Assembly: GCA_002733135.1 (NCBI GenBank)
Contig: NVUJ01000002.1
Location: 62,001 to 126,000 of the forward strand
DNA length: 64,000 nt
Source: Cycloclasticus sp.
Lineage (GTDB): Bacteria > Pseudomonadota > Gammaproteobacteria > Methylococcales > Cycloclasticaceae
Direction: 5' to 3'
Shown: in pieces, positions 29,432 to 54,308 of the stretch
Layout: each line of letters opens with the position of its first letter
Position numbering within the stretch: position 1 is the first letter of the stretch
Made by a program: the position numbers and the translations under genes
The notes under the pieces: model-generated
Seen by the model: only the letters and a program-made list of their open reading frames with translations
Told to the model about the DNA's origin: nothing
The model's database searches: none

Positions 29432-30787
<1,356 letters not shown>

Positions 30788-36022: not shown

Positions 36023-36121
36023 TGGTTAAGGTGTCGAATTGATACTGATTATGTGAACTGGGTTATTGAATTAGTAATTTACCGTGACCCAAAGTTAGGT
36101 TGCTTTTTGCCACACATAGTG

Positions 36122-37275: not shown

Positions 37276-37277
37276 TA

Positions 37278-38303: not shown

Positions 38304-38346
38304 ATTAATATGACGACTCAATGGTAAATAGGCGATTAATCAGAAT

Positions 38347-38952
38347 ATGACTGAAATTATTAAAAAGAACAACCCGGTTAAGCAGACACGAACCATGATT
38401 TTAGATGTTTCGGCAAAACTGTTTAGTCAGTATGGCTATAACGGAACCGTGATACGGGATATAGCCCAAGCCTTAAACATGAAAGCTGGCAGCCTTTATT
38501 ACCATTTTGATTCTAAAGAACAATTGGTTTTAGAAGTCTTAACCATTGGTATTGAAAACATTATTGATACTGTTCAGCGGGAAGTGGCAGCGTTGCCGAA
38601 AAATTGTTCATCAAAAGAGATTGTACAGGCTGCAACTAAAGGACATTTATTGGCCTTGTTAGAAAAAGGTGATTACACATCAACAAGTATACGTAACCTT
38701 GGGCAATTGCCTGAACCTGTTCAAGCAGAGGTGCTAGTTATACGCGACCGGTATGAGGACATGTGGCGAAAGTGGTTGTTGGATGCACAAACCAACGGTG
38801 AGATTAAGGCGAACGTTAACTTGAAAGTTTTAAGGTTATCAATACTCGGCGTGTTAAATAGAACATTGGCTTGGTATAAAAAAGGAGAGCTAACGATCGA
38901 GGAAATTGCGGGTATGCAAATAGGCTATTTTTGGGACGGCGTTAGCGCCTAA
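38347..38952 (+). CDS. TetR-family transcriptional regulator
   Basis: 201 residues with the N-terminal TetR HTH: TMILDVSAKLFSQYGYNGTVIRDIAQALNMKAGSLYYHFDSKEQLV. The C-terminal ligand domain is of the KstR2/FadR-like type (TetR_C) that often senses acyl-CoA. It is the only clear transcription factor in the window; the candidate operators at 36356, 40454 and 47753 surround genes it might control. Repression relieved by a pathway CoA ester is a reasonable prediction. Confidence 0.88.
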   Translation: MTEIIKKNNPVKQTRTMILDVSAKLFSQYGYNGTVIRDIAQALNMKAGSLYYHFDSKEQLVLEVLTIGIENIIDTVQREVAALPKNCSSKEIVQAATKGHLLALLEKGDYTSTSIRNLGQLPEPVQAEVLVIRDRYEDMWRKWLLDAQTNGEIKANVNLKVLRLSILGVLNRTLAWYKKGELTIEEIAGMQIGYFWDGVSA

Positions 38953-38989
38953 TGTTGAATTGTAAAAAGCCACAAGGTTAGCAAAAAAT

Positions 38990-40378: not shown

Positions 40379-40453
40379 AATGGCTTGAAACCTGTGGTAT
40401 TGTCGTCAATGGAACTAAAAATAGCATAAAAGATAATCAATCGCTTGTGTAAT

Positions 40454-40467
40454 CTAACAAATGTTAG
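40454..40467. promoter_or_regulatory. TAACA-N2-TGTTA operator, copy 1
   Basis: CTAACAAATGTTAG, a 6+6 dyad with a 2-nt spacer, in the divergent MmgE/PrpD - acyl-CoA dehydrogenase intergenic region. The same core appears at 47753-47766 in the other divergent promoter of the island. The form is typical of TetR-family operators. Confidence 0.55.
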
Positions 40468-40570
40468 TAATTTAAAAACAATTATGCTTAATAGAAAGAA
40501 AAGTCAGTCTTTCTTTGAGTTAATAACGCCAATACGAATTCGGTTCTACACAGAATGAAAGGAGTTAAAA

Positions 40571-41767
40571 GTGGATTTAAATTATAGCCCTGAAGAGCAA
40601 GCATTTAAGCTTGAGGTAAGGGAATTCTTGCGAACAAATTACCCCAAAGATATTAAAGAAAAGGTGGCTAAAGGTGTTGCCTTAAAAAAGTCAGACTACG
40701 TGACGTGGCAAAAAATCTTATATAAAAAGGGTTGGGTAGCACCAAGTTGGCCAGAACAATATGGCGGTACGGGCTGGTCGCCTGTGCAAAAATATATATT
40801 TGAAGAGGAGTGCGCAGCGGCAAATTGTTTGCGATTAGTCTCTTTTGGTTTAGTGATGATTGGTCCTGTCCTATTAGAGTTTGGAACGGAAGAGCAAAAG
40901 CAGAAATATTTACCTGATATTTTGAAAAGTGATGTCTGGTGGGCGCAAGGATATTCAGAGCCGAATGCGGGATCTGACCTTGCATCATTACAAACACGTG
41001 CAGAAAATAAAGGCGACCATTACCTTTTAAATGGCACTAAAACATGGACAACGCATGGCCATTACGCAGATATGATTTTTGTGTTGGCACGTACCAGTCA
41101 AGAAGATAGAAAACAAAAAGGCATCAGTTTTTTATTGGTCGATATGAAAGACCCCGGTGTGTCTGTTGAGCCTATTATCACGGTTGATGGTATGCATGTG
41201 GTGAACCAAGTGTTTTTTGATGAGATAAAAGTGCCCATAGAAAATATCGTGGGTAAAGAGGGTGAGGGCTGGACGATTGCTAAATATTTATTGCAACATG
41301 AGCGCACCAATATTGCCCAAGTTCCTCGTTCTAAAAAGCAAATAGAGCGGTTAAAAGCATTGGCGGAAAAAGAGCAATGTAATGGTAAGCCGTTACTGGA
41401 AGATACAAACTTTAGAAGGAAAATAGCAGAGGTGGAAGTTGAGCTGATGGCCTTAGAAATGACAAACTTGCGGGTACTGTCTAAGTTGTCTGCTGGTGAG
41501 CCGCCCGGTTCAGCTTCGTCATTACTAAAAGTTAAAGGCACTGAGGTTCAGCAGGCAATTACTGCCTTGCTAATGGAAGCGGTGGCGTATTACGGGTTTC
41601 CGTATGATAAAAACGTTATGTTAGACGGCTGGCAAGAAGACCCCATCGGGCCAGAAGAGGCTATATTTTTAGCGCCGCACTATTTTGACTGGCGCAAAAC
41701 ATCCATTTACGGCGGTTCTAATGAAATTCAAAAAAACATCATGGCAAAAGCCGTGTTAGGGCTATAG
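40571..41767 (+). CDS. Acyl-CoA dehydrogenase, first subunit of a tandem pair
   Basis: 398 residues with a GTG start and a good AAGGAG. Family motifs: QYGGTGWSPVQKYIFEEE, WAQGYSEPNAGSDLASLQTRAENKGDHYLLNGTKTWTTHGHYADM, FFDEIKVP..NIVGKEGEGWTIAKYLL and the C-terminal IYGGSNEIQKNIMAKAVLGL. It is 10 bp ahead of a second, divergent dehydrogenase that lacks the GSNEIQ tail; such pairs form alpha2beta2 enzymes in steroid side-chain degradation (ChsE1-ChsE2 type). Alpha,beta-desaturation of a bulky acyl-CoA is the likely job. The typical catalytic Glu in the Y-E-G motif is Gly here, as in several FadE subgroups. Confidence 0.85.
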   Translation: MDLNYSPEEQAFKLEVREFLRTNYPKDIKEKVAKGVALKKSDYVTWQKILYKKGWVAPSWPEQYGGTGWSPVQKYIFEEECAAANCLRLVSFGLVMIGPVLLEFGTEEQKQKYLPDILKSDVWWAQGYSEPNAGSDLASLQTRAENKGDHYLLNGTKTWTTHGHYADMIFVLARTSQEDRKQKGISFLLVDMKDPGVSVEPIITVDGMHVVNQVFFDEIKVPIENIVGKEGEGWTIAKYLLQHERTNIAQVPRSKKQIERLKALAEKEQCNGKPLLEDTNFRRKIAEVEVELMALEMTNLRVLSKLSAGEPPGSASSLLKVKGTEVQQAITALLMEAVAYYGFPYDKNVMLDGWQEDPIGPEEAIFLAPHYFDWRKTSIYGGSNEIQKNIMAKAVLGL

Positions 41768-41777
41768 GGCGAAGCAG

Positions 41778-42908
41778 ATGAATTTAGAATTTAGTGAAGA
41801 AATGAACATGTTGCAGGATATGTTGAATAAATTTCTGCATAACGAATACAGTTTTGAACAACGCCAAACACTCAGCCGGCAAGGCATTGGCTATAGCGAA
41901 GACAATTGGCAACAATTTGCTGAAATGGGGCTGTTGGGTGTGCCGTTTGATGAACAATATGGCGGTTTTGGTTTTGGCCAAGCAGGGCTTATTGTCGTTA
42001 TGGAAGCTATTGGTAAAGGGCTTATAGTTGAGCCATATCTTGCTTCAATTGTATTGGCTGGACAACTGGTTCAGCAAGCGGGCAGTGAGGCGCAAAAGCG
42101 CACCTTACTTGAACCGCTTATTGGAGGCGGATTAAAACTGGCATTTGCTTATGTCGAGCGCCAATCACGCTATAACTTGGCTGATGTAGTTTGTAAGGCA
42201 GTAAAACGAGGAAACCAATTTTGTATCAGGGGTAGTAAGTCCGTGGTGTTTAATGCTGAAACGGCAGACAAGATTATTGTCTGTGTTCGAACCAGCGGGG
42301 AGAGCATTAGCCAAGCAGGTATTTCGTTATTTATCGTGGATAAAGGCAGTAAGGGTTTATCAACAAGAGATTATGAAACAGTCGATGGGTTACGAGCATC
42401 TGAGGTTCATTTTGATGGTGTTATGGTTGACGAATCGTCTTTAATCGGCGAGTTGGATAATGCTTATGACGCTATCCAAACAGTCATCGATTCTGCTTCG
42501 GCCGCCATTTGCGCAGAGGGGGTGGGTGTTATTACGCAGCTTCGTGATAAGACGGTTGAGTACTTGAAAACACGCAAACAATTTGGTCAACCATTGAGTC
42601 GCTTCCAAGTATTACAGCACCGCTGTGTGGATATGTTTATGCACGAGGAACAAATGCGCTCTTTAGCCTACTTAGCGGCCATAAAAGTGACGAGTGATGA
42701 TGCCAGTGAATCAGCAAAAAGCGTATCATCGGCAAAAGTTTATTTAGCTGATGCACGAACGATAGTGGCAGAACAAGCGGCGCAATTGCACGGTGGTATC
42801 GGTGTCACGGATGAATTGGATGTGGCGCACTATGTGAAACGCCTCACCATGTTAAATACCTTGTTTGGCGATAGAGATTTCCACTTACAACGTTTGTGTT
42901 CCTTGTAA
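41778..42908 (+). CDS. Acyl-CoA dehydrogenase, second subunit of a tandem pair
   Basis: 376 residues. Recognisable FadE features: QYGGFGFGQAGLIVVMEAIGKGLIVEPYLAS, FAYVERQSRYNLADVVCKAV, FDGVMVDESSLIG, TRKQFGQPLSRFQVLQHR and AAQLHGGIGVTDELDVAHYVKRL. The glycine and acidic residues of the FAD-contacting SEP.AGSD block are weak, as in non-catalytic or half-site subunits of heteromeric dehydrogenases. Gene spacing (10 bp upstream, 27 bp downstream) argues for co-expression with its partner and with the hotdog hydratase genes. Confidence 0.85.
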   Translation: MNLEFSEEMNMLQDMLNKFLHNEYSFEQRQTLSRQGIGYSEDNWQQFAEMGLLGVPFDEQYGGFGFGQAGLIVVMEAIGKGLIVEPYLASIVLAGQLVQQAGSEAQKRTLLEPLIGGGLKLAFAYVERQSRYNLADVVCKAVKRGNQFCIRGSKSVVFNAETADKIIVCVRTSGESISQAGISLFIVDKGSKGLSTRDYETVDGLRASEVHFDGVMVDESSLIGELDNAYDAIQTVIDSASAAICAEGVGVITQLRDKTVEYLKTRKQFGQPLSRFQVLQHRCVDMFMHEEQMRSLAYLAAIKVTSDDASESAKSVSSAKVYLADARTIVAEQAAQLHGGIGVTDELDVAHYVKRLTMLNTLFGDRDFHLQRLCSL

Positions 42909-42935
42909 CGTTAATGATGGCCGATAATTAATACG

Positions 42936-43358
42936 ATGAGTGACTTTGTAACATACGCAAGCCTTGTAGAAGGTGACGACTTTTTAAACCCACCGGTGCC
43001 CTTTGAAGTTAATCAAAATGTGGTCGATTGGTATATTAATGCGACCAACGATACGACAGCAGAACTTCAGGAAGTTGATCCGCAGGGTGACCGTATTGCG
43101 CCGCCGATGTTAGCAGCAGTGTATGTGATAGACGCCTTGCGAACACGCGTTGGACCACCGGGTGGTATTCATGCCAAGCAGCGTTTTAAGTTACACCGGC
43201 CAGCGAAAATTGGCGAAAAGTTATATACCTCGGCTAATGTCCTTAAGCTGTACGAGCGCAAAGGGCGTAACTACGTGGAAATGACGACAGAAACAAAAAA
43301 TCAGACCGGCGAGTTAATTACAAGCGGTTTGATTACCCGGATATGGGGAAAAGAATAA
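42936..43358 (+). CDS. Hotdog hydratase subunit (FAS1/MaoC N-terminal type)
   Basis: 140 residues, single hotdog domain of the MaoC_dehydrat_N type (PF13452-like): VVDWYINATNDTTAEL, IAPPMLAAVYVIDALRTRVGPPGGIHAKQRFKLHRPAKIGEKLYTSANV. It has no hydratase-2 catalytic motif and probably forms a heteromer with the catalytic MaoC subunit immediately downstream, whose start codon overlaps its stop (TAATG). Same layout as the ChsH1/ChsH2 or split R-specific hydratases. Confidence 0.8.
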   Translation: MSDFVTYASLVEGDDFLNPPVPFEVNQNVVDWYINATNDTTAELQEVDPQGDRIAPPMLAAVYVIDALRTRVGPPGGIHAKQRFKLHRPAKIGEKLYTSANVLKLYERKGRNYVEMTTETKNQTGELITSGLITRIWGKE

Positions 43359-43786
43359 TGTCATCAACCAATGAACTGGAGCAATTCAATGGTTTTTCTG
43401 TGGGTGATGATTTGCCGCAGCTGCTTGAGAAAGTTGATCAAAGTATGATTGACGCTTACGCCGATGCGTCAGGTGATGTTAACCCGCTTCATGTTGACCC
43501 CGAATTTGCAAAAACCACTATTTTTGGCGGTACGATTGCACATGGTTTGCTAACACTCGCGTTTGTATCGCGGGTATTATCTGCGTGGAATTGGCAGGGT
43601 TGGGCTTATGGGGGGGAGCTAGATATCGTCTTTCTTGGCCCCGTACGGCCAGGCGATACAGTACGTGTTTGCGCTAAAATAGACGCGATAGAGCAACGTG
43701 AAGATAGTGTATACGCTCGCTGCAGCCTGGCTTGTTATTGTGGCGAGAAAGCCGTTGTTAAAGGCACGGTTATCAGTAAGATTTAG
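43358..43786 (+). CDS. MaoC-type (R)-hydratase catalytic subunit
   Basis: 142 residues from the ATG at 43358, chosen because it forms a one-base TAATG overlap with the preceding stop; an upstream ATG at 43343 would add five residues inside the preceding gene. The hydratase-2 motif is complete: YADASGDVNPLHVDPEFA with the Asp-His dyad, then FGGTIAHGLLTLAF and PVRPGDTVRV. It hydrates trans-2-enoyl-CoA, presumably the product of the tandem dehydrogenase. Its last 14 bp overlap the convergent acyl-CoA dehydrogenase gene. Confidence 0.85.
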   Translation: MSSTNELEQFNGFSVGDDLPQLLEKVDQSMIDAYADASGDVNPLHVDPEFAKTTIFGGTIAHGLLTLAFVSRVLSAWNWQGWAYGGELDIVFLGPVRPGDTVRVCAKIDAIEQREDSVYARCSLACYCGEKAVVKGTVISKI

Positions 43787-44939
43787 GTAAGCCCAATACT
43801 TTTTCAGCGATAAAACACAGCGCCAATTGTGGGCTAACAGGCACCAGCCGAGGAATAAGCGATTCGCGGAAATAGCGTTCCACGTGATATTCCTTCGCAT
43901 AGCCAAAACCACCGTGTGACATAACGGCGGTTTCACACGCATGAAAACCGGCTTCTCCTGCAAGGTACTTGGCCGCATTAGCTGCAACGCCAACAGATTT
44001 TCCATTGTCGTATTGCCATGCAGCTGACAATACCATCAGCCAAGCGGCTTCAAGTTCTGCCCAACGAATGGCAAGTGGGTGTTGAATGGCTTGGTTTTTA
44101 CCGATGGGGCGATTGAAAACAATGCGTTCTTGTGCGTAAGTTTTAGCTTTATTTAAGGCTATGTTGCCAAGGCCAATGGCTTCTCCAGAAATTAGAATAC
44201 GTTCTGCATTCATGCCGTGAAGAATGCATTCAAACCCTTTGCCTTCTTCACCAATGCGGTCTTCCAGTGGAATTTTTAGATTGTCGATAAATAACTCGTT
44301 GGAATCGACTGCTTTACGTCCCATTTTTGGAATCTCACGCGCATTTATGGCGCTGCGATCAAAGTCGGTATAGAAAAGGCTCAAACCGTGCGTTGGTTTT
44401 TCAACTTCTTCAAGTGGTGTTGTGCGAGCAAGCAATAGAATTTTGTTGGTGACCTGGGCAGTCGAAATCCATACTTTTTGACCATTCACAACATAATGGT
44501 CACCATCACGAACGGCGAGTGTTTTAAGCTTAGTTGTATCAAGCCCAGTATTGGGTTCGGTAACGGCGAAACACGCTTTGTCGCGGCCTTCCACAATAGG
44601 CGGCAGCATGCGTTGCTTTTGCTCTTGTGTGGCAAATTTAACAATAGGGTTTAAGCCAAAAATATTCATATGAATGGCGGATGTCCCCGACATTCCGGCA
44701 CCCGTCTCGGCAACAGTGCGCAGCATAATGGTGGCTTCGGTAATCCCTAACCCTGAACCGCCGAATTCTTCAGGAATACAAATGCCTAACCAGCCGCCGC
44801 TTGCCATTGTTTCATAAAAATCGTGCGGAAAGCCGCCTTCTTGGTCACGTGTTAACCAATAGTCATCATCAAAGGGTTCGCACGTTTTGATGATGGATTC
44901 GCGGATTGCGTTTTGTTCTTCTGTATATGAAAAGTTCAT
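43773..44939 (-). CDS. Acyl-CoA dehydrogenase (itaconate-cluster type)
   Basis: 388 residues: GGSGLGITEATIMLRTVAETGAGMSG, CFAVTEPNTGLDTTKLKTLAVRDGDHYVVNGQKVWISTA, LHGMNAERILISGEAIGLG, SHGGFGYAKEYHVERYFRESL and the C-terminal KVLGLPKSY. This C-terminal pattern recurs in the protein at 50115, so the two are a distinct subfamily from the 40571/41778 pair. A broken copy lies at 35543-36022. Last gene of a minus-strand run DUF35 - thiolase-like - CoA transferase - dehydrogenase; 5 bp after the CoA transferase. Probably acts on the CoA ester that transferase makes. Confidence 0.88.
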   Translation of the reverse strand: MNFSYTEEQNAIRESIIKTCEPFDDDYWLTRDQEGGFPHDFYETMASGGWLGICIPEEFGGSGLGITEATIMLRTVAETGAGMSGTSAIHMNIFGLNPIVKFATQEQKQRMLPPIVEGRDKACFAVTEPNTGLDTTKLKTLAVRDGDHYVVNGQKVWISTAQVTNKILLLARTTPLEEVEKPTHGLSLFYTDFDRSAINAREIPKMGRKAVDSNELFIDNLKIPLEDRIGEEGKGFECILHGMNAERILISGEAIGLGNIALNKAKTYAQERIVFNRPIGKNQAIQHPLAIRWAELEAAWLMVLSAAWQYDNGKSVGVAANAAKYLAGEAGFHACETAVMSHGGFGYAKEYHVERYFRESLIPRLVPVSPQLALCFIAEKVLGLPKSY

Positions 44940-44944
44940 CGTGT

Positions 44945-46138
44945 CTATTTTTTAGGTTTTTGTAGGGTGATTTGTATATCTTTAAAGCGTTGAATTTCTT
45001 CTTCACAATACCCAGCAGCGGATAAAATTTCGCTATTGTTTTCACCGTATTGTGGAGGTTTAAATTGTATTTTTCCGGGGGTTCTAGACAGTTTGATAGG
45101 GATGCCTGTGCCACGGTATTCACCGTCTGTAACGACCATTTCTCTGGCAATGGTTTGTGGGTGCTGCATGGCATCCTCTACGGTTTGTACTGAGCCTGCG
45201 GGTATGCCTTTTTCCAGTAATTCTTGGGTGAGGGCCTTACCGTCTTTATCGGCGAGTATATCTTCCAGTATTTTACGTAAAACAAGCCTATTAGCTGCGC
45301 GATCTGCGTTTATGGCAAAACGTGGGTCACTGGAAACATTTTCACAGCCTAGGTGTTTGCATAAGCCAGCAAATTGCCGGTCATTACCGATGGCTAGGAA
45401 TAAATAGCCATTGGCGGTAGGTAGCAAGTCGTAGGGCGTAATATTGGGGTGTGCACTGCCGGTACGATTTTGTGGTTTGCCATCTAAGAACCAATTGGCA
45501 GCATGGGGGTGAATCAGGCTGATGGCGGTGTCGTACAGGCTGACTTCTATAGATTGCCCTAGGCCAGAGGTGTTCCGTTCATGCAAGGCTAATAAAATAG
45601 CGATAACGGCATTCATGCCGGTTGTTAGGTCGACAATAGGTACGCCAATACGAACCGGCGGCCGGTCTGGGTCACCATTAATGCTCATTAAGCCGGAAGT
45701 GGCTTGGGCAACGGCATCGTAACCTGGAAATCCAGCATAGGGGCCGGTGCTACCAAAGCCAGTAATGCGGCAATGGATTAATTGTGGGAATTTTTTCTGT
45801 AGCACGTCTTCAAAGCCAATGCCCCACTTTTCAAGCGTGCCCACCTTGAAGTTTTCGACGAGTATGTCGGCTTGTTCAAGCAAACGAAATAATATCTCAT
45901 GAGCTTCAGCTTGGCGCATATCCAAAGCAATACATTTTTTATTACGATTAACGCCGTCATAATAAGCGCTACCACGTTCGTGATAAGGAGGGCCCCAGCC
46001 ACGTGTTTCATCACCGGCAGGTGGTTCTACTTTAATGATTTCTGCACCGTGGTCGCCGAGTATTTGGGTAGATAAAGGGCCGCCTAATACACGTGATAGG
46101 TCGACTACTTTTATTCCTTCAAGCGATGATTTTGGCAT
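44945..46138 (-). CDS. Class III (CaiB/BaiF) CoA transferase (1)
   Basis: 397 residues. Family signature: LSRVLGGPLSTQILGDHGAEIIKVEPPAGDETRGWGPPY, NRNKKCIALDMR, HCRITGFGSTGPYAGFPGYDAVAQATSGLM and the catalytic Asp in IVDLTTGMNA. Such enzymes swap CoA between carboxylic acids, here probably from succinyl-CoA to the pathway acid. Its start codon directly abuts the stop of the thiolase-like gene. The island encodes two such transferases and no CoA ligase, so activation seems to use CoA transfer rather than ATP. Confidence 0.9.
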   Translation of the reverse strand: MPKSSLEGIKVVDLSRVLGGPLSTQILGDHGAEIIKVEPPAGDETRGWGPPYHERGSAYYDGVNRNKKCIALDMRQAEAHEILFRLLEQADILVENFKVGTLEKWGIGFEDVLQKKFPQLIHCRITGFGSTGPYAGFPGYDAVAQATSGLMSINGDPDRPPVRIGVPIVDLTTGMNAVIAILLALHERNTSGLGQSIEVSLYDTAISLIHPHAANWFLDGKPQNRTGSAHPNITPYDLLPTANGYLFLAIGNDRQFAGLCKHLGCENVSSDPRFAINADRAANRLVLRKILEDILADKDGKALTQELLEKGIPAGSVQTVEDAMQHPQTIAREMVVTDGEYRGTGIPIKLSRTPGKIQFKPPQYGENNSEILSAAGYCEEEIQRFKDIQITLQKPKK

Positions 46139-47290
46139 TTAGAGCACCTCCTCAGTGCCAAGTATTGAGGTGACTTGGCTGGACAAAACGCCGCCATTGC
46201 CATGTACCAGAGCCACTTCAGCATTATTAACTTGTCGTGCGCCACAGTGGCCACGCAGTTGTTGAATAGCTTCTATAAGAATGAAAATACCGTACATGCC
46301 CGGGTGCACACAAGATAAACCGCCACCATTGGTATTAACCGGCAAGCTACCACCGGGGGCAATGTTACCGTTCGAAACAAAGGGGCCGCCTTCGCCTTTT
46401 TCGCAAAACCCTAAGTCTTCTAAAAACAATAGAGTGTTGATGGTGAAAGCGTCATAGACCTCTACAACATCAATATCGTTTTGCGTAACACCAGCCATCT
46501 TGAACGCACGCTCGCCGGATTCTTTCGCGGCGGTAACCGTCAGGTCGGGCATTTGGGTGATTTGGCGATGCCAATGCGCGGTACCTGTGCCTAATAGGTA
46601 AACCGGTTTGTTGGGGAAGTCTTTGGCTCGCTCACTCGACACCATAATAACAGCGCCACCACCGTCGGTAACGAGGCAACAGTCCAGCAATGATAGTGGG
46701 TCGCTAATCATTCTTGAGTTCAGTACGTCTTCGCGTGTTAAATCATCACGTGCAAAAGCGGCAGGGTTTAATTGCGCCCATTGTCGCGCGGCTACAGCAA
46801 TATCGGCGAGTTGCTCGCGGGTAGTGCCATATTGGTACATATGCCGTGCAGCGGCTAATGCATAAGAGCTAATAGGGTATCGTGGTTTATACGGTGCTTC
46901 ATAAATTTGCTGTTCTGACATGGTGGCCAATTTTCCACCAGCGGTACGCTGATTGCTGCCGTAACAAATAAGCGCCACATCGCATAAGCCAGTTTTAAGC
47001 GCCATTGCAGCATTGAGCGTGTGTGCAACAAAAGACGAGCCACCGACCATGCTACCGTCGGAAAACCGCGGTTTAATACCCAAGTATTCAGCCGTGCTAA
47101 GTGTGGGCATAAAATGGTAAGACGAGCCGGTAAATAGCCCGTCAATATCGCTCAGCTTTAAACCGGCATCGTCCAATGCGTTATGCGTGGCTTCGGCAAG
47201 AATATCTAGCGGCATTTTGCCGTGCGCTTCACCGCAACCCGCCAAGCCGACACCAACGATAGCGGAAGAACCTCTTAAATTATGAGCCAT
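46139..47290 (-). CDS. Thiolase-fold protein, Cys nucleophile absent (Ltp2/SCP-x-like)
   Basis: 383 residues: AIVGVGLAGCGEAHGKMPLDILAEATHNALDDAGL, SYHFMPTLSTAEYLGIKP, NGGGLSCVHPGMYGIF and HGNGGVLSSQ. Where true thiolases have the nucleophilic Cys this reads GGSSF (S85, S86), and the second thiolase Cys is also missing, as in lipid-transfer-protein-type aldolases (Ltp2) rather than acyltransferases. TAATG overlap with the DUF35 gene; Ltp2 and BbsB likewise need a DUF35-type partner. Candidate retro-aldol or C-C-cleaving enzyme on a 3-hydroxy- or 3-oxo-acyl-CoA. The absence of Cys is by eye and should be confirmed by alignment. Confidence 0.82.
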   Translation of the reverse strand: MAHNLRGSSAIVGVGLAGCGEAHGKMPLDILAEATHNALDDAGLKLSDIDGLFTGSSYHFMPTLSTAEYLGIKPRFSDGSMVGGSSFVAHTLNAAMALKTGLCDVALICYGSNQRTAGGKLATMSEQQIYEAPYKPRYPISSYALAAARHMYQYGTTREQLADIAVAARQWAQLNPAAFARDDLTREDVLNSRMISDPLSLLDCCLVTDGGGAVIMVSSERAKDFPNKPVYLLGTGTAHWHRQITQMPDLTVTAAKESGERAFKMAGVTQNDIDVVEVYDAFTINTLLFLEDLGFCEKGEGGPFVSNGNIAPGGSLPVNTNGGGLSCVHPGMYGIFILIEAIQQLRGHCGARQVNNAEVALVHGNGGVLSSQVTSILGTEEVL

Positions 47291-47691
47291 TAACTCGCTT
47301 CCTTACTTGGGGTGAAGACAACAAACGGCTCATCGTCATCATTAATAATGCGGGCCGTTACCTTATCACCAATATTGACTAATTTAGCGTCGATATCTTC
47401 AATGCGGCTCATCATGCGAGGGCCTTCATCGAGGGTAATAAGGCAAACATTATAATCACCGCCACGTTCAGGTTTGCGGTAAATGGTCGTGGTTGAATAG
47501 ACTTCACCTTTACCTGAAATGGCTAACCATTCGAGTTCAAATTCGCCACAATATGGGCATACGACGCGGGGGAAGAAATGAAACTGATTACATTTCGTAC
47601 ACTTTGGCAGGGCAAAAATATGACGATCTAAAAAAGAACGGTAGATCATATCAGGACCGCTTTTATTGGTTTTATCAGATTGTTTGGTCAT
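47290..47691 (-). CDS. DUF35 OB-fold zinc-ribbon partner protein
   Basis: 133 residues. A zinc ribbon with C31-x2-C34 and C45-x2-C48 (CTKC..CPYC), preceded by FLDRHIFALPK, then the OB-fold GKGEVYSTTTIYRKPERGGDYNVCLITLDEGPRMMSRI. DUF35 proteins bind acyl-CoA handling thiolase-fold partners, as in BbsA-BbsB and the ChsH2 C-terminal domain with Ltp2. It heads the minus-strand operon and overlaps the thiolase-like gene by one base. Confidence 0.88.
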   Translation of the reverse strand: MTKQSDKTNKSGPDMIYRSFLDRHIFALPKCTKCNQFHFFPRVVCPYCGEFELEWLAISGKGEVYSTTTIYRKPERGGDYNVCLITLDEGPRMMSRIEDIDAKLVNIGDKVTARIINDDDEPFVVFTPSKEAS

Positions 47692-47752
47692 GGGGAATCA
47701 GTCTAATTTTCTTTAAATTAATGTGTATTAAATAAAAAACTTGTGGAAAATT

Positions 47753-47766
47753 CTAACACTTGTTAT
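47753..47766. promoter_or_regulatory. TAACA-N2-TGTTA operator, copy 2
   Basis: CTAACACTTGTTAT between the divergent DUF35 gene (starts 47691) and the Old Yellow Enzyme gene (47808). Core identical to the dyad at 40454-40467 except for the two spacer bases. It lies 62 bp and 42 bp from the two start codons. Confidence 0.55.
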
Positions 47767-47807
47767 GTTGAGAAACTACTTGTTTGTTATTTAGGAGATA
47801 TCGCACT

Positions 47808-48950
47808 ATGCCTGCAAAAAATGCGTTACTTTTCGAGTCGCTTAAAGTGCGCGAGCTTGAATTGTTGAATCGAATTATGATTTCCCCCATGTGCACTTAT
47901 CAAGCTGAGCTTGATGGTAAGGCGCATGAAACGCATTTGGTGCATTACGGCCAGTTTGCGCTCGGCGGTGCCGGTTTAATTATGACCGAGGCGACAGCGG
48001 TTGAAGCGCGTGGCCGTATTAGTGCCGGAGACTTGGGCTTGTGGTCGGATGAGCAAGTTCCAGCGATTAAACGAGTGGTTGATTTTGTTCACCAACAAGG
48101 CTCAAAAATGGGCGTTCAATTGGCGCATGCAGGTATTAAAGCGTCAACGCGTCCACCGTGGGATGGTAATAGTTTTTTAGATAACAGTGATGCTGAAAAG
48201 GGCGCCAAACCTTGGCAAACGGTTGGCCCTACAGACGAGCCATTAGCGGCAGATTGGCCGACCCCAATGGCGTTGAGTATTAGTGATATAGAAACGCTCG
48301 TCGAAGCATGGGGCGCGGCGGCTGCTAGAGCAAATACCGCGGGCTTTGATGTACTGGAAATACACGGTGCGCATGGGTATTTAATCAGTGAATTTTTGTC
48401 GCCACTAACGAATACGCGTACGGATGAATACGGTGGTGAGCAAGGGCGAACTCGATTAGCCTGTGAAGTAGTTGAAGCGGTGCGTGCAAATTGGCCGGAA
48501 CATAAACCGTTGTTTTTTAGAATGTCGGTGATCGAAGGGGTGGATATTGGTTGGTCGCTAGATGACTCGATTAAACTGGCGAAGCGGCTTAAAACCTTAG
48601 GCGTGGATTTGATTGATTGTTCCAGTGGCGGAGTGATTGGGATGCATGGAAAGTATGCCATTCCCCGCACGCCGGGTTATCAGGTTTTTCTTGCTGATGC
48701 GATAAGGTCACAAGCACGAATACAGGTGTCTGCGGTGGGGTTAATTACTCAGCCTAATCAGGCAGAAGCAATTTTACAAGCGAGCCAAACTGATATTATT
48801 GCGCTTGGGAGAGAAGCGCTAAATAACCCTTACTGGCCAAGACATGCGGCGCAAGTTTTTAACGCAGATGAGCATTTTGAAAATTGGCCGCAGCGTTATG
48901 GTTGGTGGTTAGATAAACGTGCAGCAATGGTCAAGGGGGCTGGTCAATAA
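47808..48950 (+). CDS. Old Yellow Enzyme-family NAD(P)H:flavin oxidoreductase (XenA/NamA type)
   Basis: 380 residues from the ATG at 47808, preceded by AGGAG at 47793-47797; a longer frame from 47784 would place the RBS inside the gene. FMN-dependent enoate reductase: LLNRIMISPMCTYQAE with the thermophilic-like/XenA-type Cys (C29), the substrate-binding HGAH motif in LEIHGAHGYLISEFLSPLTN, and IALGREALNNPYWP. It can reduce an activated C=C bond. First gene of a five-gene run with CoA transferase, dehydrogenase, crotonase and SDR genes. Role in saturating an unsaturated ring or side chain is inference. Confidence 0.9.
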   Translation: MPAKNALLFESLKVRELELLNRIMISPMCTYQAELDGKAHETHLVHYGQFALGGAGLIMTEATAVEARGRISAGDLGLWSDEQVPAIKRVVDFVHQQGSKMGVQLAHAGIKASTRPPWDGNSFLDNSDAEKGAKPWQTVGPTDEPLAADWPTPMALSISDIETLVEAWGAAAARANTAGFDVLEIHGAHGYLISEFLSPLTNTRTDEYGGEQGRTRLACEVVEAVRANWPEHKPLFFRMSVIEGVDIGWSLDDSIKLAKRLKTLGVDLIDCSSGGVIGMHGKYAIPRTPGYQVFLADAIRSQARIQVSAVGLITQPNQAEAILQASQTDIIALGREALNNPYWPRHAAQVFNADEHFENWPQRYGWWLDKRAAMVKGAGQ

Positions 48951-48951
48951 T

Positions 48952-50118
48952 ATGAATGATCAGCAAACAGAAACCACATGGCCCTTAACAGGTATTAAAG
49001 TCTATGAGATAGGTACCAGTGTTGCAGCGCCTTATGGTACATGGATTTTAGCAGCACTTGGGGCCGAGGTTATCAAAGTTGAGCCGGAAGGTCGAGGAGA
49101 TGATTGTCGACACTGGGGGCCTCCATTTTGGCATGGCTCTTCGTCTATGTTTCAGGCGCTAAATAGAGATAAACAATCCATTACCGTTAATTTAAACCAT
49201 GCTGAAGATAAAGCGTGGTTACGGGATGAGTTAGTACATAACGCCGATGTTATATTACAAAATATGCGCCCTGGAAAAATAGCATCACTGGGCTTGGGTT
49301 CAGATGAACTGTGTAAGTTAGCGCCGCGCCTTGTGTACTGCAATATTTGGGCGTTTGGTCAACAAGGGCCAATGGCAGATAAACCTGGATATGATCCATT
49401 AATGCAAGCCTACAGTGGCCTGATGGGTTTGAATGGAGAGCCCGATCGCCCGCCGGTTAGAGTGGGTACATCCATTATTGATATGGGGACTGGCATGTGG
49501 TGCGGCATTGGTATTTTGGCGGCTTTATTAGAACGTGAAAAAACCGGAAAAGGTTGTGTGGTGGATGCTTCATTATATGAAACAGCGCTTGGGTGGATGA
49601 CCTCACACATGGCCAGTTATCAAGCAACCGGAAAGCTACCCACGCCTCAAGGCTCTGGTATACAAGGGCTTGCACCTTATCAGGCCTATGAATGTTCCGA
49701 TGGTTTTTTAGTGATTGCTGCGCCGAATGATAAATTATTTGAATTATTGAAAGCCGTATTAGGCCACCCTGATTGGGCGGAAGAGGAACGGTTTAAAACG
49801 AACCCTTTGCGTTTTGAAAACAAAGCGGCTTTAAACCGATTGATAACCGCCATTTTAATAGAGCATCCACGGGTTTATTGGGAGCAGAAGCTTGATGGGG
49901 TAGGTATTCCTAATTCGCCGATAAAACAGGTTGATGAGGTGTTAAACGACCCACAAACGAAGGCTTTAGGTATCGTCCAAGAGTCTGCCGAGCACGCAAT
50001 GAAATTAGTCGGCTTGCCAATAAGCTTCAATGGTAAACGCCCGCCGATTCGAAATGAAGCGCCGAGCCTAGGCGCACAAAATAGCAGCGTTAAAAACGAA
50101 AAAAAGGAAAATAAATGA
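48952..50118 (+). CDS. Class III (CaiB/BaiF) CoA transferase (2)
   Basis: 388 residues from the ATG at 48952, one base after the preceding stop; an in-frame Met at 48919 lies inside the upstream gene. YEIGTSVAAPYGTWILAALGAEVIKVEPEGRGDDCRHWGPPFW, NIWAFGQQGPMADKPGYDPLMQAYSGLM and the catalytic Asp in SIIDMGTGMWC. It is similar in pattern to the transferase at 44945 but clearly a different protein (mutual identity is confined to the family motifs). Four-base ATGA overlap with the next gene. BbsEF of benzylsuccinate metabolism also consists of two such proteins, but as heteromer subunits encoded side by side. Confidence 0.9.
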   Translation: MNDQQTETTWPLTGIKVYEIGTSVAAPYGTWILAALGAEVIKVEPEGRGDDCRHWGPPFWHGSSSMFQALNRDKQSITVNLNHAEDKAWLRDELVHNADVILQNMRPGKIASLGLGSDELCKLAPRLVYCNIWAFGQQGPMADKPGYDPLMQAYSGLMGLNGEPDRPPVRVGTSIIDMGTGMWCGIGILAALLEREKTGKGCVVDASLYETALGWMTSHMASYQATGKLPTPQGSGIQGLAPYQAYECSDGFLVIAAPNDKLFELLKAVLGHPDWAEEERFKTNPLRFENKAALNRLITAILIEHPRVYWEQKLDGVGIPNSPIKQVDEVLNDPQTKALGIVQESAEHAMKLVGLPISFNGKRPPIRNEAPSLGAQNSSVKNEKKENK

Positions 50119-51287
50119 GCGATATATCCATTCTGCTGGGTAATGATTACGCTGATATACGCGATGCCGTTAGCAAAATATGTGACGATTTCCCTGGGGG
50201 ATACTGGCGTAAGTTGGATGCTGAAAGTGCTTACCCAGAAGCTTTTGTTAAGGCTTTAACAGAGTCAGGTTTTTTATCAGCATTAATTCCAGAAGAGTAT
50301 GGTGGCGTTGGCTTACCCTTACGCGCTGCGGCTGTAATAATGGAAACCATTCATGCTTCAGGTGGATCGGCTTCTGCTTGTCATGCGCAAATGTACATCA
50401 TGGGTGCACTGCTTAGGCATGGTAGCGAAGAACAAAAAGAAAAGTATTTACCAAAAATTGCATCGGGTGAACTGCGCCTGCAAGCCTTTGGGGTAACTGA
50501 GCCCACATCAGGTTCTGATACGACCAAATTACGTACCAAAGCCGTTCGACAAGGTGATAAATACATCATTAACGGTCAAAAAGTATGGACGAGCCGTGCT
50601 TTTCAATCAGACCTTATGTTGTTACTAGCACGTACAACGCCTTTAGAAGAAGTGTCTAAACCCACCGATGGCTTATCTATTTTCTTGGTTGATATGCGTG
50701 ATGTAGTCGGCAATGGTATGGAAATTCGCGCCATTGACGCGATGATTAACCACAACACTACCGAAGTATTTTTCGACAATATGGAGATTCCTGCCGACGC
50801 TTTGATTGGTGAGGAGGGGAAAGGCTTTCGCTATGTGATGAGTGGCATGAATGCAGAACGTGTGATTATTGCCGGTGAAAGCATTGGCGATGCTCGATTT
50901 TTTATTAAAAAAGCCACGGACTACGCTAATGAACGAAAAATATTTGGCGGGCCAATTGGTCAAAACCAAGGGGTGCAATTCCCCATTGCGCGAGCTCATG
51001 CGGAAGCCGAAGCGGCAGATTTAATGGCTCGTAAAGCGGCTGCTTTATACGAAGCAGGTATGCCGTGTGGTGCAGAAGCTAATATGGCAAAAATGTTGTG
51101 TGCAGACGCCGCTTGGAATGCTGGCGAAGCGTGTATGCAAACCCACGGCGGCTTCGCCTTTGCGCGTGAATATGATATTGAACGTAAATGGCGCGAGGCA
51201 CGTTTGTATTTAATCGCGCCCATTTCAACCAATATGATACTGAGCTATATCGGCCAGCATGTTTTAGGCATGCCAAAATCTTACTAA
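50115..51287 (+). CDS. Acyl-CoA dehydrogenase (2)
   Basis: 390 residues: PEEYGGVGLPLRAAAVIMETIHASGGSASACHAQMYIMG, AFGVTEPTSGSDTTKLRTKAVRQGDKYIINGQKVWTSRA, GEEGKGFRYVMSGMNAERVIIAGESIGDA, THGGFAFAREYDIERKWREARLYLIAPIS and the end HVLGMPKSY. Same subfamily as 43773. It is positioned after a CoA transferase and before a crotonase and SDR, so it probably makes the enoyl-CoA for the following hydratase. FAD-dependent, cytoplasmic. Confidence 0.9.
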   Translation: MSDISILLGNDYADIRDAVSKICDDFPGGYWRKLDAESAYPEAFVKALTESGFLSALIPEEYGGVGLPLRAAAVIMETIHASGGSASACHAQMYIMGALLRHGSEEQKEKYLPKIASGELRLQAFGVTEPTSGSDTTKLRTKAVRQGDKYIINGQKVWTSRAFQSDLMLLLARTTPLEEVSKPTDGLSIFLVDMRDVVGNGMEIRAIDAMINHNTTEVFFDNMEIPADALIGEEGKGFRYVMSGMNAERVIIAGESIGDARFFIKKATDYANERKIFGGPIGQNQGVQFPIARAHAEAEAADLMARKAAALYEAGMPCGAEANMAKMLCADAAWNAGEACMQTHGGFAFAREYDIERKWREARLYLIAPISTNMILSYIGQHVLGMPKSY

Positions 51288-51336
51288 ACAGGCTGGGCCA
51301 GTAAGCCAAACCAGCGGCAAATAAAAAGAGTGACAT

Positions 51337-52137
51337 ATGACACAAGCAGTGATTAAAGAATTTAAAGACGGCATAGAAATATGGCGTATGAACCATGTTG
51401 AAACGCGTAATGCGATAACCAATATGGAGATGATAGATACCTTGGTTTTATATGCGCAACAAGCACAGAAAAACCCGGAAGTTAGAGTCATTATTTTAAC
51501 GGGCAATGGGCTTGCTTTTTCATCGGGCGGCAATGTGAAGGAAATTCGTTCGCAGATGACCGAATCAGACAAAACACCGCACGAACTAGCGACTTGGTAC
51601 CGTGAAGGCATCCAGCGTATCCCCTTGGCTTTTGAAAAATTGGATGTGCCGATTATTGCCGCTATTAATGGGCCGGCAATAGGCGCAGGTTGTGATTTAA
51701 CCTGTATGTGCGATATGCGTATTGCGGCACAAAGTGCCCGATTTGCCGAGAGTTTTGTGAAGCTGGGTATTATCCCCGGCGATGGTGGTGCGTGGTTATT
51801 ACCGCGTGCAGTAGGTTTAGCAAAAGCCGCAGAAATGGCATTTACAGGCGACGCCATAAGCGCACAAGAAGCGCTTGATTGTGGTTTGGTGTCAAAAGTT
51901 GTGGCGGATGATCAGTTAATGAATGAAGCAATGTCATTAGCAAAACGGGTAGCGGTTAACCCACCTATTTCAGTGCGTATGGCCAAACAATTGATGCGCG
52001 AAGGGCAACGTACAAACTTGGATAATCACTTGCAAATGGCGGCTGTTATGCAGGCCGTTTCCCATCGTACAGAAGACCATCGCGAAGCAATGGAAGCGAT
52101 TTTTGAAAAGCGTGCGCCGATATTTAAAAGCCGTTAG
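51337..52137 (+). CDS. Crotonase-fold enoyl-CoA hydratase family protein
   Basis: 266 residues. LTGNGLAFSSGGNVKEIR and INGPAIGAGCDLTCMCDMRIAAQSARFAESFVKLGIIPGDGGAWLLPRAVG are classic crotonase, with oxyanion-hole glycines. Where the first catalytic Glu of standard hydratases stands (PEI), this reads SFV, so hydration may be carried out by another residue, or the protein may be an isomerase or hydrolase. Fourth gene of the OYE - CoA transferase - dehydrogenase - crotonase - SDR run. Confidence 0.85.
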   Translation: MTQAVIKEFKDGIEIWRMNHVETRNAITNMEMIDTLVLYAQQAQKNPEVRVIILTGNGLAFSSGGNVKEIRSQMTESDKTPHELATWYREGIQRIPLAFEKLDVPIIAAINGPAIGAGCDLTCMCDMRIAAQSARFAESFVKLGIIPGDGGAWLLPRAVGLAKAAEMAFTGDAISAQEALDCGLVSKVVADDQLMNEAMSLAKRVAVNPPISVRMAKQLMREGQRTNLDNHLQMAAVMQAVSHRTEDHREAMEAIFEKRAPIFKSR

Positions 52138-52176
52138 ACGGGGTGTTCTACGGATGAATTGAAAGGAGACAATAAT

Positions 52177-53085
52177 ATGATGATGAAAGGTAAAGTAGCC
52201 TTAGTAACGGGTGCTGGTAGAGGTATTGGTCGAGCAATTGCCATTGAAATGGCCAAGCAAGGTGCAAAAATAGTGGTGAATGATTTAGGCGCTAGTTTGG
52301 GCGGTGAAGGCATTGATATGAGCCACGCCGAAGAGGTGGTTAAAACAATTACGGATATGGGCGGCGAGGCCGTAATTAATGGTGATAGCGTGGCAGAACT
52401 GTCCGGTGCGCAAGCGATGGTACAAACAGCCATTGATAATTTTGGCCGTATTGATACCGTGGTGAATAACGCCGGTATTTTGCGTGATAAAATTTTCCAC
52501 AAAATGACACCCGATGATTGGCACGCGGTCATTAACGTGCATTTAAATGGCAGTTTTAATACCGCTCACGTGGCCGCGCAACACTTTCGCAAGCAAGAAA
52601 GCGGTAGCTTTGTGTTTATGACATCCACATCGGGGTTGATTGGGAATGTGGGGCAGGCGAACTATTCAGCCGCTAAACTGGGCATTACCGCGTTGTCTAA
52701 AAGCATTGCTCTGGATATGCAGCGTTACAACGTTCGTTCAAATTGTATTGCGCCGTTTGCTTGGAGCAGAATGACCAGCGCCATTCCCGTGGATACGCCA
52801 GCTCAACAAGCGCGCGTTGATAAGTTAAAGCAAATGACACCCGATAAAGTTGGCGTAATGGCGACGTATTTAGCGACCGATGCAGCGAAAGACGTGACAG
52901 GGCAAATTTTTGCGGTGCGTAATAATGAAATATTTTTGATGGGACAATCTAGGCCACAACGTTCGGCACATCGTTCAGAAGGTTGGACACCAGAAACCAT
53001 TGCAGAACATGCTATACCAGCGCTTAAAAATGACTTTTATCCGTTAGATGTATCTGCCGATGTGTTTAGTTGGGACCCTGTTTAA
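52177..53085 (+). CDS. SDR-family 3-hydroxyacyl-CoA dehydrogenase-like protein
   Basis: 302 residues from the ATG at 52177, preceded by GAAAGGAGAC. Rossmann TGAGRGIG (11-18), NNAG (97-100), serine near 150 and Y163-x3-K167. The C-terminal extension with RSEGWTPETIAEHAIPALKN resembles the multifunctional-enzyme type-2/HSD17B4-like dehydrogenases that oxidise 3-hydroxyacyl-CoA. Consistent with the NAD-dependent third step of a beta-oxidation. Last gene of its operon. Confidence 0.85.
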   Translation: MMMKGKVALVTGAGRGIGRAIAIEMAKQGAKIVVNDLGASLGGEGIDMSHAEEVVKTITDMGGEAVINGDSVAELSGAQAMVQTAIDNFGRIDTVVNNAGILRDKIFHKMTPDDWHAVINVHLNGSFNTAHVAAQHFRKQESGSFVFMTSTSGLIGNVGQANYSAAKLGITALSKSIALDMQRYNVRSNCIAPFAWSRMTSAIPVDTPAQQARVDKLKQMTPDKVGVMATYLATDAAKDVTGQIFAVRNNEIFLMGQSRPQRSAHRSEGWTPETIAEHAIPALKNDFYPLDVSADVFSWDPV

Positions 53086-53105
53086 GGCGTAGCCTACGAT
53101 TGCGA

Positions 53106-54308
53106 TTATGTTCGTTCAATAACGACAGCCAGCCCCTGGCCAACCCCAATGCACATGGTGATGAGGGCGTAGCGCCCGCCGGTTCTTTGTAATTGCCGCG
53201 CTGCTGATAAGGCTATGCGAGCACCAGAAGCCCCCAGTGGGTGACCAACGGCAATAGCACCGCCGTTTGGGTTAATGCGTGGGTCATCGCTCGCTAGCCC
53301 TAGCTGTTTTAAGTCACCAAGTACTTGTGCGGCGAAGGCTTCGTTAATTTCAATAACATCCATTTGTGCCAGCGTTAAGCCCAAGCGTTTAAGTACTTTT
53401 TGGCTGGCTGGCACTGGGCCTAAGCCCATCAATGAAGGCTCGACACCTGCCGACGCACCACCCAGTACACGTGCAATAGGTTTGAGGTGATGTTGTTCGC
53501 CAAAGGCTTTGTTTCCCATCAGTACCGCAACTGCGCCATCGTTAAGGCCAGACGCATTAGCCGCAGTGACTACACCGCCATCGAGTAAAGAATTCATGGA
53601 AGCCATTTTGTCGGCAGTTGTGTTTGGCCGTGGGTGTTCATCGGTATCAACAACAGTATCCGCCTTGCCTCTTTTTTGCGGTATGTTAATAGCTATGATG
53701 TCGTCTTTAAAATAGCCATTAGCGGTTGCATCGGCCCATTTTTTTTGTGATTGGTAAGCAAACTTATCAGAAGCTTCGCGGCTAATATTCTCAGCCTTAG
53801 CAACGTTCTCAGCCGTTTCTGGCATACTCTCATGGCCGTAAAGTTTGCCAAAAACCTGGTTTGGAAAGCGCACGCCAATGGCGCTGTCGTAAATGTTAAT
53901 GTCTTTACTGTAGGCGGTATTGCTTTTATTAAACGTCAACGGTGCGCGCGTCATACTTTCCACGCCACCTGCAATATACACGTTGCCTTCACCACAGCTA
54001 ATGGCACGAGCAGCATCCAAAATAGCCGATAAACTACTGGCGCATAAGCGGTTAACGGTTTGGGCGCTCACTTCGACAGGCAAACCGGCCAGCAAACTGG
54101 CGTAACGCGCGATGTTGCGGCTATCTTCGCCAGACTGGCAAACACAACCCAAAATAACGTCATCAATTAACGCGGGGTTAAAGTCGTTACCTTCTACCAA
54201 TGCTTTAATGACACTAGCGGCTAAATCATCTGGTCTAACAGCGGCCAACGAACCACAGTATTTTCCAAAAGCAGTTCGTGCGCCGTCATAAATGTATGCA
54301 TTTAACAT
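53106..54308 (-). CDS. Acetyl-CoA C-acyltransferase (thiolase)
   Basis: 400 residues with the full thiolase catalytic set, in contrast to the protein at 46139: nucleophile C89 in NRLCASSL, GHPLGASGARIAL with the His, and C near 386 in MCIGVGQG. It splits 3-oxoacyl-CoA with CoA; the close relatives are PcaF/FadA-type. It faces the SDR gene convergently, 20 bp apart, and starts 135 bp from the divergent ketopantoate reductase-like gene. Probably the last step of the beta-oxidation-like sequence. Confidence 0.9.
   Translation of the reverse strand: MLNAYIYDGARTAFGKYCGSLAAVRPDDLAASVIKALVEGNDFNPALIDDVILGCVCQSGEDSRNIARYASLLAGLPVEVSAQTVNRLCASSLSAILDAARAISCGEGNVYIAGGVESMTRAPLTFNKSNTAYSKDINIYDSAIGVRFPNQVFGKLYGHESMPETAENVAKAENISREASDKFAYQSQKKWADATANGYFKDDIIAINIPQKRGKADTVVDTDEHPRPNTTADKMASMNSLLDGGVVTAANASGLNDGAVAVLMGNKAFGEQHHLKPIARVLGGASAGVEPSLMGLGPVPASQKVLKRLGLTLAQMDVIEINEAFAAQVLGDLKQLGLASDDPRINPNGGAIAVGHPLGASGARIALSAARQLQRTGGRYALITMCIGVGQGLAVVIERT

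Follow-up and report, generated by a model that had tools for sequence, protein, structure and literature searches.

A thiolase-fold protein without a nucleophile cysteine: a putative DUF35-dependent retro-aldolase in a Cycloclasticus-like genome

What reaction can be expected of a thiolase-fold protein in which the cysteine that serves thiolases as nucleophile has been lost? The question is raised by a gene in a 64,000 nt stretch of contig NVUJ01000002.1 (the window), which belongs to a Cycloclasticus-like metagenome-assembled genome (1.76 Mb, 83% complete). The gene lies next to one for a DUF35 protein. We consider it likely that the pair is a DUF35-dependent retro-aldolase, that is, a β-hydroxyacyl-coenzyme A (CoA) lyase, and that it is fed by neighboring enzymes, because Gly84 and Tyr279 of the thiolase-fold protein match the corresponding residues of two retro-aldolases (Gly89 and Tyr302 of Sal, and Tyr294 of Ltp2), it falls on their side of the tree, it resembles IpfD of the ibuprofen pathway, and its gene adjoins a DUF35 gene and keeps company with dehydrogenase and hydratase genes. 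Residue numbers are those of the window protein unless another protein is named.

Residues in the catalytic columns

The thiolase-fold protein scores 675.8 bits against NCBIfam PRK06158 (NF004811), above the curated cut-off of 421, and it is therefore a member of a subfamily that NCBIfam names acetyl-CoA acetyltransferase. We aligned it with six reference proteins, the thiolase encoded at 53106 in the same window, and 188 family open reading frames (ORFs); 10 of 198 profile hits had been dropped before counting (shorter than 300 amino acids, containing X, or identical). Four motifs locate the columns of interest: GGSSF starts at residue 83, YDAFT at 279, VHPG at 328, and HGNGG at 363. The nucleophile column holds the second glycine of GGSSF (Gly84), in register with the nucleophile Cys of the thiolase BbsB and with Gly89 of CtSal, and in Sal a glycine is reported to occupy the place of the catalytic cysteine (PMC12329534). 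Our Sal numbering assumes an inferred tag offset of 24, with which all eleven residue letters agree with that paper. A pairwise alignment to BbsB with a gap inside the helix had placed the nucleophile at Ser85; we rejected it because Gly84 results from both the ungapped register and the multiple alignment, in line with the glycine reported for Sal. Compared with thiolases, two columns have switched: residue 84 is Gly in place of Cys, and residue 279 is Tyr in place of His (HDxF to YDAF), where Tyr279 shares the column of Ltp2 Tyr294. The nucleophile Cys and the HDxF motif of SCP2-type thiolases and BbsB are thus absent, and by alignment their GHP-type His is kept as His329.

In 107 Pseudomonadota sample rows with a letter in all three columns, the nucleophile and 279 columns read Gly/Tyr in 53, Cys/His in 49, and Ser/His in 2; the patterns Gln/Tyr, Cys/Ala, and Gly/Gln occur once each. 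Rows L193 and L194 were left out of the column tallies because of gaps, yet they are counted within the 56 Tyr-type sample rows referred to below. In the loci of near relatives, 75 of 77 rows are Gly/Tyr (72 PRK06158-like proteins and three paralogues), all with His329, and the other two are Cys thiolases. Because every one of the 75 Tyr-type rows from these loci has Gly at the nucleophile column, the loss of the nucleophile is clade-wide and not a product of chance decay. The His-to-Tyr column is the more telling half of the switch.

Several rows depart from these patterns. Ten Gly/Tyr relatives (L098, L100-L104, L109, L110, L113, and L132) read GGC, with a Cys one residue past the nucleophile column. 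The Gln/Tyr row (L131) looks like a gap artefact. A real exception is L162 (ORF 1300-2535) on the Cys/His side, whose nucleophile column reads Gly and which has Gln instead of His (QDAT); here thiolase chemistry was perhaps lost independently. Ser occupies the nucleophile column, together with HDAF, in L144 and L167, and L160 reads Cys/Ala.

The initial annotation held that both catalytic cysteines were lost, with GGSSF at the nucleophile position and HGNGG as the C-terminal Cys-Gly block. The nucleophile is indeed gone and GGSSF does mark its position, with Gly and not Ser in the exact column, but the second cysteine gave no such distinction. In the alignment, Val362, the neighbor of His363, shares its column with the CxG Cys of the 53106 thiolase. 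Tyr279 is missing from 53 sampled rows, 50 with and 3 without the nucleophile Cys, and columns 362 and 363 are free of Cys in all 53. One of these rows (L140) has a Cys two places beyond the C-terminal columns, and 6 of 72 near relatives have one at column 362. Since SCP2-type Cys thiolases in the sample also lack it, the absence of the C-terminal Cys carries no diagnostic weight, and we rejected it as evidence for an aldolase.

The protein might still be a thiolase or acyltransferase that cleaves 3-ketoacyl-CoA with a substitute nucleophile (Ser85, Ser86, or a Cys located elsewhere), which would suit its fold, the retained GHP-type His329, the retained Gly367 of the oxyanion region, and the NCBIfam name. 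There are cysteines at 19, 103, 109, 204, 205, 296, 327, and 349, and Ser86, Cys204, Cys205, and Cys296 are invariant in an alignment of 38 near relatives. However, Ser85 is Ala in 6 of the 72 near relatives, and Cys204, Cys205, and Cys296 are also Cys in BbsB, alongside its real nucleophile. The two cysteines that the initial annotation had named as examples whose alignment with the nucleophile position would refute its reading, C19 and the Cys of SCVHPG, lie outside the nucleophile column: C19 is Cys in just 14 of 72 near relatives, and Cys327 (69 of 72) stands two residues before His329 and aligns with Glu, Phe, and Tyr of Ltp2, Sal, and BbsB. The HDxF His, moreover, is Tyr, and Ltp2, Sal, and IpfD lie on the same side of the tree, so we regard another nucleophile as unlikely. 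A noncatalytic scaffold that binds CoA esters is hardly credible: Cys-less thiolase-fold proteins could be binding proteins, and a short stretch around His329 is poorly modeled, but Tyr279, Asp280, Phe282, His329, and many more residues are invariant in the 38-row alignment. Arg193, in the column of the CoA-binding Arg216 of Sal, is Arg in 70 of 72 near relatives.

Descent of the Gly/Tyr proteins and comparison with named systems

Rows at least 72% identical to a kept row were removed before tree building, and two long branches were also removed for a careful tree of 83 rows that excluded the catalytic columns. In this tree, 46 Gly/Tyr rows, with Ltp2, Sal, and IpfD among them, lie on one side of a branch (support 100/100) that is present in all 200 bootstrap trees, and BbsB lies on the other side. 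A quick 85-row tree with the 53106 thiolase as its root gave the same Gly/Tyr grouping with a support of 98. The fifteen PRK06158-like rows that we chose form one clade (100/92), as do the sixteen obtained by including L098 (100/97), which scores above the PRK06158 cut-off and reads GGC. Column 329 changed four times on the careful tree. As His occupies this column in 52 of the 53 rows that lack Tyr279, His329 is most simply read as a retained ancestral state, with Tyr or Gln appearing later in the relatives of Ltp2/IpfD and Sal; the window clade seems to be an aldolase in which the thiolase histidine has survived.

Close relatives carry a second Gly/Tyr paralogue (SGAT, YDCF, and His in the 329 column) a few kilobases from the first (see table). 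A protein search of the window's genome, at 83% completeness, returned one full-length copy and one weak piece, and the second paralogue was not found.

The solved structures nearest to the window protein by sequence are 4u4e, CtSal (9myr), and Ltp2 (6ok1). Ltp2–ChsH2(DUF35), a steroid C3 side-chain retro-aldolase, shares the thiolase fold, Gly in the nucleophile column, the Tyr base of YDxF, and the DUF35 partner, at 32% identity in a structural alignment. However, its acid Tyr344 is replaced by His329 and its His296 (YDHF) by Ala281, so that the window protein fails both residue tests, and its DUF35 is the tail of a hydratase, whereas the window DUF35 is a free protein. The Ltp2 type proposed by the initial annotation is therefore apt for the missing nucleophile, the DUF35 partner, and the side of the tree, but not for these features. 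In Sal–Shy(DUF35), a bile-acid C5 side-chain retro-aldolase, Gly89, Tyr302, Tyr165, and Arg216 correspond to Gly84, Tyr279, Tyr143, and Arg193, whereas the essential Cys304 is replaced by Ala281 and Gln352 by His329; the Tyr302/Cys304 pair test thus fails. Sal Y302F is almost inactive, Sal C304A, C304S, and C304H are inactive, and the base in Ltp2 is reported to be Tyr294 (PMC12329534). Shy has a Cys3His1 zinc finger (PMC12329534), and the window DUF35 has a C4 ribbon.

The closest solved sequence, 4u4e (E value 7.1e-123), is a putative thiolase of Sphaerobacter thermophilus with GGSSF, Tyr, and His in the matching columns and YDSF instead of YDAF. BbsB, a benzoylsuccinyl-CoA thiolase (7pxp), shares the fold, a DUF35 partner, and the GHP His with the window protein, but it has the nucleophile Cys and HDAF.

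IpfD/IpfE belongs to the ibuprofen pathway (pIBU218); ipfD was identified through its accession in PMC11347016. IpfD is 37% identical to the window protein from end to end and has YDAF, Gly in the nucleophile column, and an OB-fold DUF35-like partner. From mutants and metabolites, its step has been interpreted as a retro-aldol cleavage, and IpfDE is also called a thiolase (PMC9195938). In contrast to the window protein, IpfD has Tyr at column 329, is placed outside the PRK06158 clade, and has a ring-deacylation context, and IpfE (L084:3232-3627, minus strand) has lost the zinc-ribbon Cys that the window DUF35 retains. We asked whether the window pair might likewise be a ring deacylase, which would cut the acyl-CoA side chain off a dearomatized dihydrodiol made by a window dioxygenase. 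The best NCBIfam profile of IpfD is also PRK06158 (287.4 bits, below the cut-off), YDAF is shared, and two dioxygenase alpha subunits with HcaE as their best NCBIfam match are encoded at 24366 and 29432. The idea is weakened by the identity of just 27–28% between these and the alpha subunit of the ipf cluster; the dioxygenase at 29432 resembles biphenyl/benzene dioxygenases (724 bits to 5aeu), and dehydrogenase and hydratase genes adjoin the pair. With the Tyr of IpfD and its place in the tree added, we think such a role very unlikely. The window protein would, then, work like Ltp2, Sal, and IpfD while failing the residue tests of each, and as a whole we judge the aldolase assignment to be probable.

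The DUF35 partner and the neighboring genes

The DUF35 gene lies upstream of the thiolase-fold gene, and the two are separate genes whose stop and start codons overlap by 1 nt (TAATG); the initial annotation was right to name a DUF35 partner, but the overlap that it described as a fusion produces none. A DUF35 gene adjoins the Tyr-type row in all 76 cases from near loci (the window's own copy and the three paralogues counted). In the sample, it does so in 54 of 57 Tyr-type rows (the 56 and the ipf locus) versus 8 of 53 others; a less sensitive DUF35 profile gave 75 of 76, 46 of 57, and 6 of 53, respectively. The window DUF35 ribbon has the spacing C-x2-C-x10-C-x2-C. As the C4 pattern is found in 59 of 75 near DUF35 partners, the ribbon is not universal.

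Features of the window and of three related loci
Feature	Position	Strand	Remarks
DUF35 partner, 133 aa	47290..47691	minus	zf-ChsH2 and OB_ChsH2_C; C4 zinc ribbon Cys31, 34, 45, 48
Thiolase-fold protein, 383 aa	46139..47290	minus	NCBIfam PRK06158 member; putative β-hydroxyacyl-CoA retro-aldolase
Codon Gly84	47039..47041	minus	column of thiolase nucleophile Cys (ungapped helix register and multiple alignment)
Codon Tyr279 (YDAF)	46454..46456	minus	column of Ltp2 Tyr294 and Sal Tyr302; proposed base
Codon His329 (VHPG)	46304..46306	minus	column of thiolase GHP His, Ltp2 Tyr344, and Sal Gln352; proposed acid
Codons Val362-His363 (HGNGG)	46202..46207	minus	Val362 in column of CxG Cys of 53106 thiolase
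CaiB/BaiF-type CoA-transferase	44945..46138	minus	start codon directly after thiolase-fold stop codon
Acyl-CoA dehydrogenase	43773..44939	minus	5 bases past CoA-transferase gene
MaoC hydratase with D-x-N-P-x-H motif	43343..43786	plus	
MaoC-fold (FAS1_DH-region) protein without usual hydratase-2 motif	42936..43358	plus	
Acyl-CoA dehydrogenase, PimD-like partner	41778..42908	plus	381.8 bits, below cut-off 652.7
Acyl-CoA dehydrogenase, PimC-like	40571..41767	plus	478.4 bits, below cut-off 623.85
Canonical Cys thiolase, 3-oxoadipyl-CoA thiolase-like	53106..54308	minus	601.8 bits, just below cut-off 622
Second Gly/Tyr paralogue	L005:6668-7840	minus	
Second Gly/Tyr paralogue	L007:13956-15140	minus	
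Second Gly/Tyr paralogue	L011:13277-14461	minus	

The CoA-transferase and thiolase-fold genes probably belong to one operon. An operon on the plus strand faces these genes and encodes both PimC/PimD-like dehydrogenases together with two MaoC-fold proteins. Among solved structures, the PimC-like dehydrogenase has its best relatives in 6wy8/6wy9 (Tcur3483) and 4x28, which we take to be heterotetrameric steroid side-chain dehydrogenases. Both MaoC proteins were judged by what we take to be the hydratase-2 motif, and the one without it is possibly an inert partner. A PimCD-type pair has been likened to ChsE12 (PMC12543098). By analogy, the dehydrogenase pair, the hydratase pair, DUF35, and the thiolase-fold protein would make up the function set of the igr operon of steroid degraders, with DUF35 freed from the hydratase. 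A partial copy of the minus-strand dehydrogenase of the table, 61% identical over its residues 197–385, lies at 35558-36046 (minus strand), is overlapped by a 159 aa ORF with a TTG start, and looks like a decayed duplication remnant.

We examined 60 loci of relatives that spanned at least 16 kb. With probes from the window, 50 of these loci showed an acyl-CoA dehydrogenase, 42 a crotonase, 35 a CaiB-type transferase, and 21 a short-chain dehydrogenase/reductase (SDR); with probes from a Pseudomonas aeruginosa record, 38 showed a MaoC gene and 36 the first dehydrogenase of a pair. The common company of the gene pair is a dehydrogenase and some hydratase, not one fixed hydratase.

PRK06158 is above cut-off in 13 of 299 sampled Pseudomonadota genomes, including the window's own. 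The nearest relatives with named records are 90–99% identical and come mostly from Piscirickettsiaceae or Cycloclasticus bins; Polaromonas sp. JS666 has a homologue of 73.6% identity, and a megablast search of window positions 38000-53100 against plasmids gave zero matches. One contig of a viral collection (L083) encodes part of a relative (61% over residues 175–380) and may be bacterial DNA that was binned as viral.

The 53106 thiolase has Cys, Asn, and His in the canonical columns, which bears out the separate, catalytic thiolase of the initial annotation. Because of this triad, and with an SDR also present at 52159, two cleavage chemistries in one island, retro-aldol and thiolytic, are plausible.

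Retro-aldol cleavage is reversible, and this favors a further candidate: the same scaffold could serve an aldol- or Claisen-type enzyme that forms C–C bonds, or one that decarboxylates malonyl-CoA-type substrates. TbSLP (YDCF) is a very weak malonyl-CoA decarboxylase, and PhlC, which has a DUF35 partner, acylates phenols (PMC12329534). However, the neighbors look catabolic (ring dioxygenases, BphC- and HpaH-like enzymes, CoA-transferases, dehydrogenases, and hydratases), and CtSal gave no acetyl-CoA from malonyl-CoA (PMC12329534). We consider either activity improbable.

Proposed reaction, substrates, and consequences

In the retro-aldolase scheme that we favor, the neighboring CoA-transferase would make an acyl-CoA, the PimCD/ChsE-like dehydrogenase pair would desaturate it, and the MaoC pair would hydrate the product to a β-hydroxyacyl-CoA. 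The thiolase-fold protein would then split the bond between Cα and Cβ to give an aldehyde or ketone and acetyl-CoA or propionyl-CoA, a step that would require no ketone oxidation, CoA attack, or acyl-enzyme. Tyr279 would deprotonate the β-hydroxyl, and His329 would be the most likely proton donor to the enolate, replacing Ltp2 Tyr344 and Sal Cys304. Arg193 would bind CoA as Arg216 does in Sal, and DUF35 would complete the substrate cleft.

A number of observations weigh against this scheme. On the tree, the two-column switch is one event, and the co-variation of the columns is therefore shared descent and not repeated co-evolution. Ala281 sits where Sal requires Cys304, and Ltp2 Tyr344 and His296 and Sal Cys304 and Gln352 are all absent. 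DUF35 proteins also partner thiolases, in BbsAB and an archaeal complex (PMC12329534). The window's own MaoC type was found in 3 of the 60 relatives' loci, so the hydratase partner is not fixed. Together with the Cys thiolase, the SDR (a type found in 21 of the loci) means that ordinary β-oxidation of other intermediates can also run in the island. In the literature searched, we found no reported activity for any PRK06158 member and no paper on the function of PRK06158 or 4u4e; none of the six best-ranked papers combined PRK06158 with thiolase, and none of the listed papers named 4u4e.

The predicted structure is similarly equivocal. The model, a single chain of the thiolase-fold protein, has a mean score of 86.0 and a predicted template modeling score of 0.89 overall. 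Residues 328–330, and His329 with them, have predicted local distance difference test values below 50, so the placement of His329 rests on the sequence alignment. A fold search with the model (Z differences below 1 treated as ties) matched Sal (Z 49.4, root-mean-square deviation [rmsd] 2.1, 370 aligned residues), 4u4e (Z 49.0, rmsd 1.8, 349 aligned), and Ltp2 (Z 48.2, rmsd 2.2, 367 aligned), and it also matched the thiolase 6esq (Z 47.4, rmsd 2.1, 369 aligned). Aldolases and thiolases score alike, and we set the fold search aside as a means of telling them apart.

The island also encodes BphC-like, HpaH-like, HpcH/HpaI-aldolase, and BphD/HsaD-like proteins and the two ring dioxygenases, a set that would fit meta-cleavage of an alkyl- or cycloalkyl-substituted aromatic compound with release of an acyl side product. 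An itaconate-degradation-like set lies beside the island at 36409-38303 and 38990-40378 (a CitE/RipC-like lyase, a RipB/Ich-like hydratase, and a PrpD/MmgE protein, all below NCBIfam cut-offs). The PimCD-like and itaconate-type genes point toward dicarboxylic or branched acids as candidate substrates.

We treat a role in dicarboxylate (pimelate or azelate) degradation as a lead only. In a P. aeruginosa plasmid record, the gene pair adjoins an acetate-CoA ligase family gene, MaoC, dehydrogenases, and an IclR regulator; no pimeloyl-CoA model matched the ligase family protein at the threshold used. A random barcode transposon-site sequencing (RB-TnSeq) study reports dicarboxylate phenotypes for PimCD/ChsE12-like dehydrogenase pairs, and, for two thiolases, phenotypes on dicarboxylic acids of C8 and above (PMC12543098). 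The available main text of that study makes no mention of DUF35, OB-fold, or aldolase, and the available text of a paper on azelaic acid (PMC10945470) makes none of thiolase or DUF35.

The PRK06158 family is widespread and probably misnamed. We suggest tentatively, as a possibility that we hold with some doubt, that all of PRK06158 is a third catalytic type of thiolase-fold retro-aldolase (Tyr279-His329), preserving a step ancestral to the Tyr/Tyr (Ltp2 and IpfD) and Tyr/Cys (Sal) types, and that it combines with a hydratase and a pair of dehydrogenases into a non-steroid igr module that shortens β-branched, cyclic, or dicarboxylic acyl-CoAs beyond the reach of thiolysis. The type could supply the gene for orphan lyases, among which we count (1-hydroxycyclohexyl)acetyl-CoA lyase; a literature search on the cyclohexylacetate lyase found no paper that contained three of its five terms. 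If the retro-aldolase assignment is correct, a family found above cut-off in 13 of 299 sampled genomes carries the wrong reaction name, and pathway models that use PRK06158 as a thiolase are wrong at the carbon–carbon cleavage step. It would also add a nonthiolytic cleavage route outside steroid and ibuprofen degradation, and the retained thiolase His would make the thiolase-to-aldolase switch directly testable with two point mutants.

Elsewhere in the window, a small ORF at 59426-59878 (minus strand) has a signal-peptide-like start, is extremely rich in His, Asn, and Tyr, and is possibly metal-binding. Two similar lipoprotein-like ORFs lie in tandem at 3340-3903 and 3971-4537 (minus strand) and probably arose by duplication.

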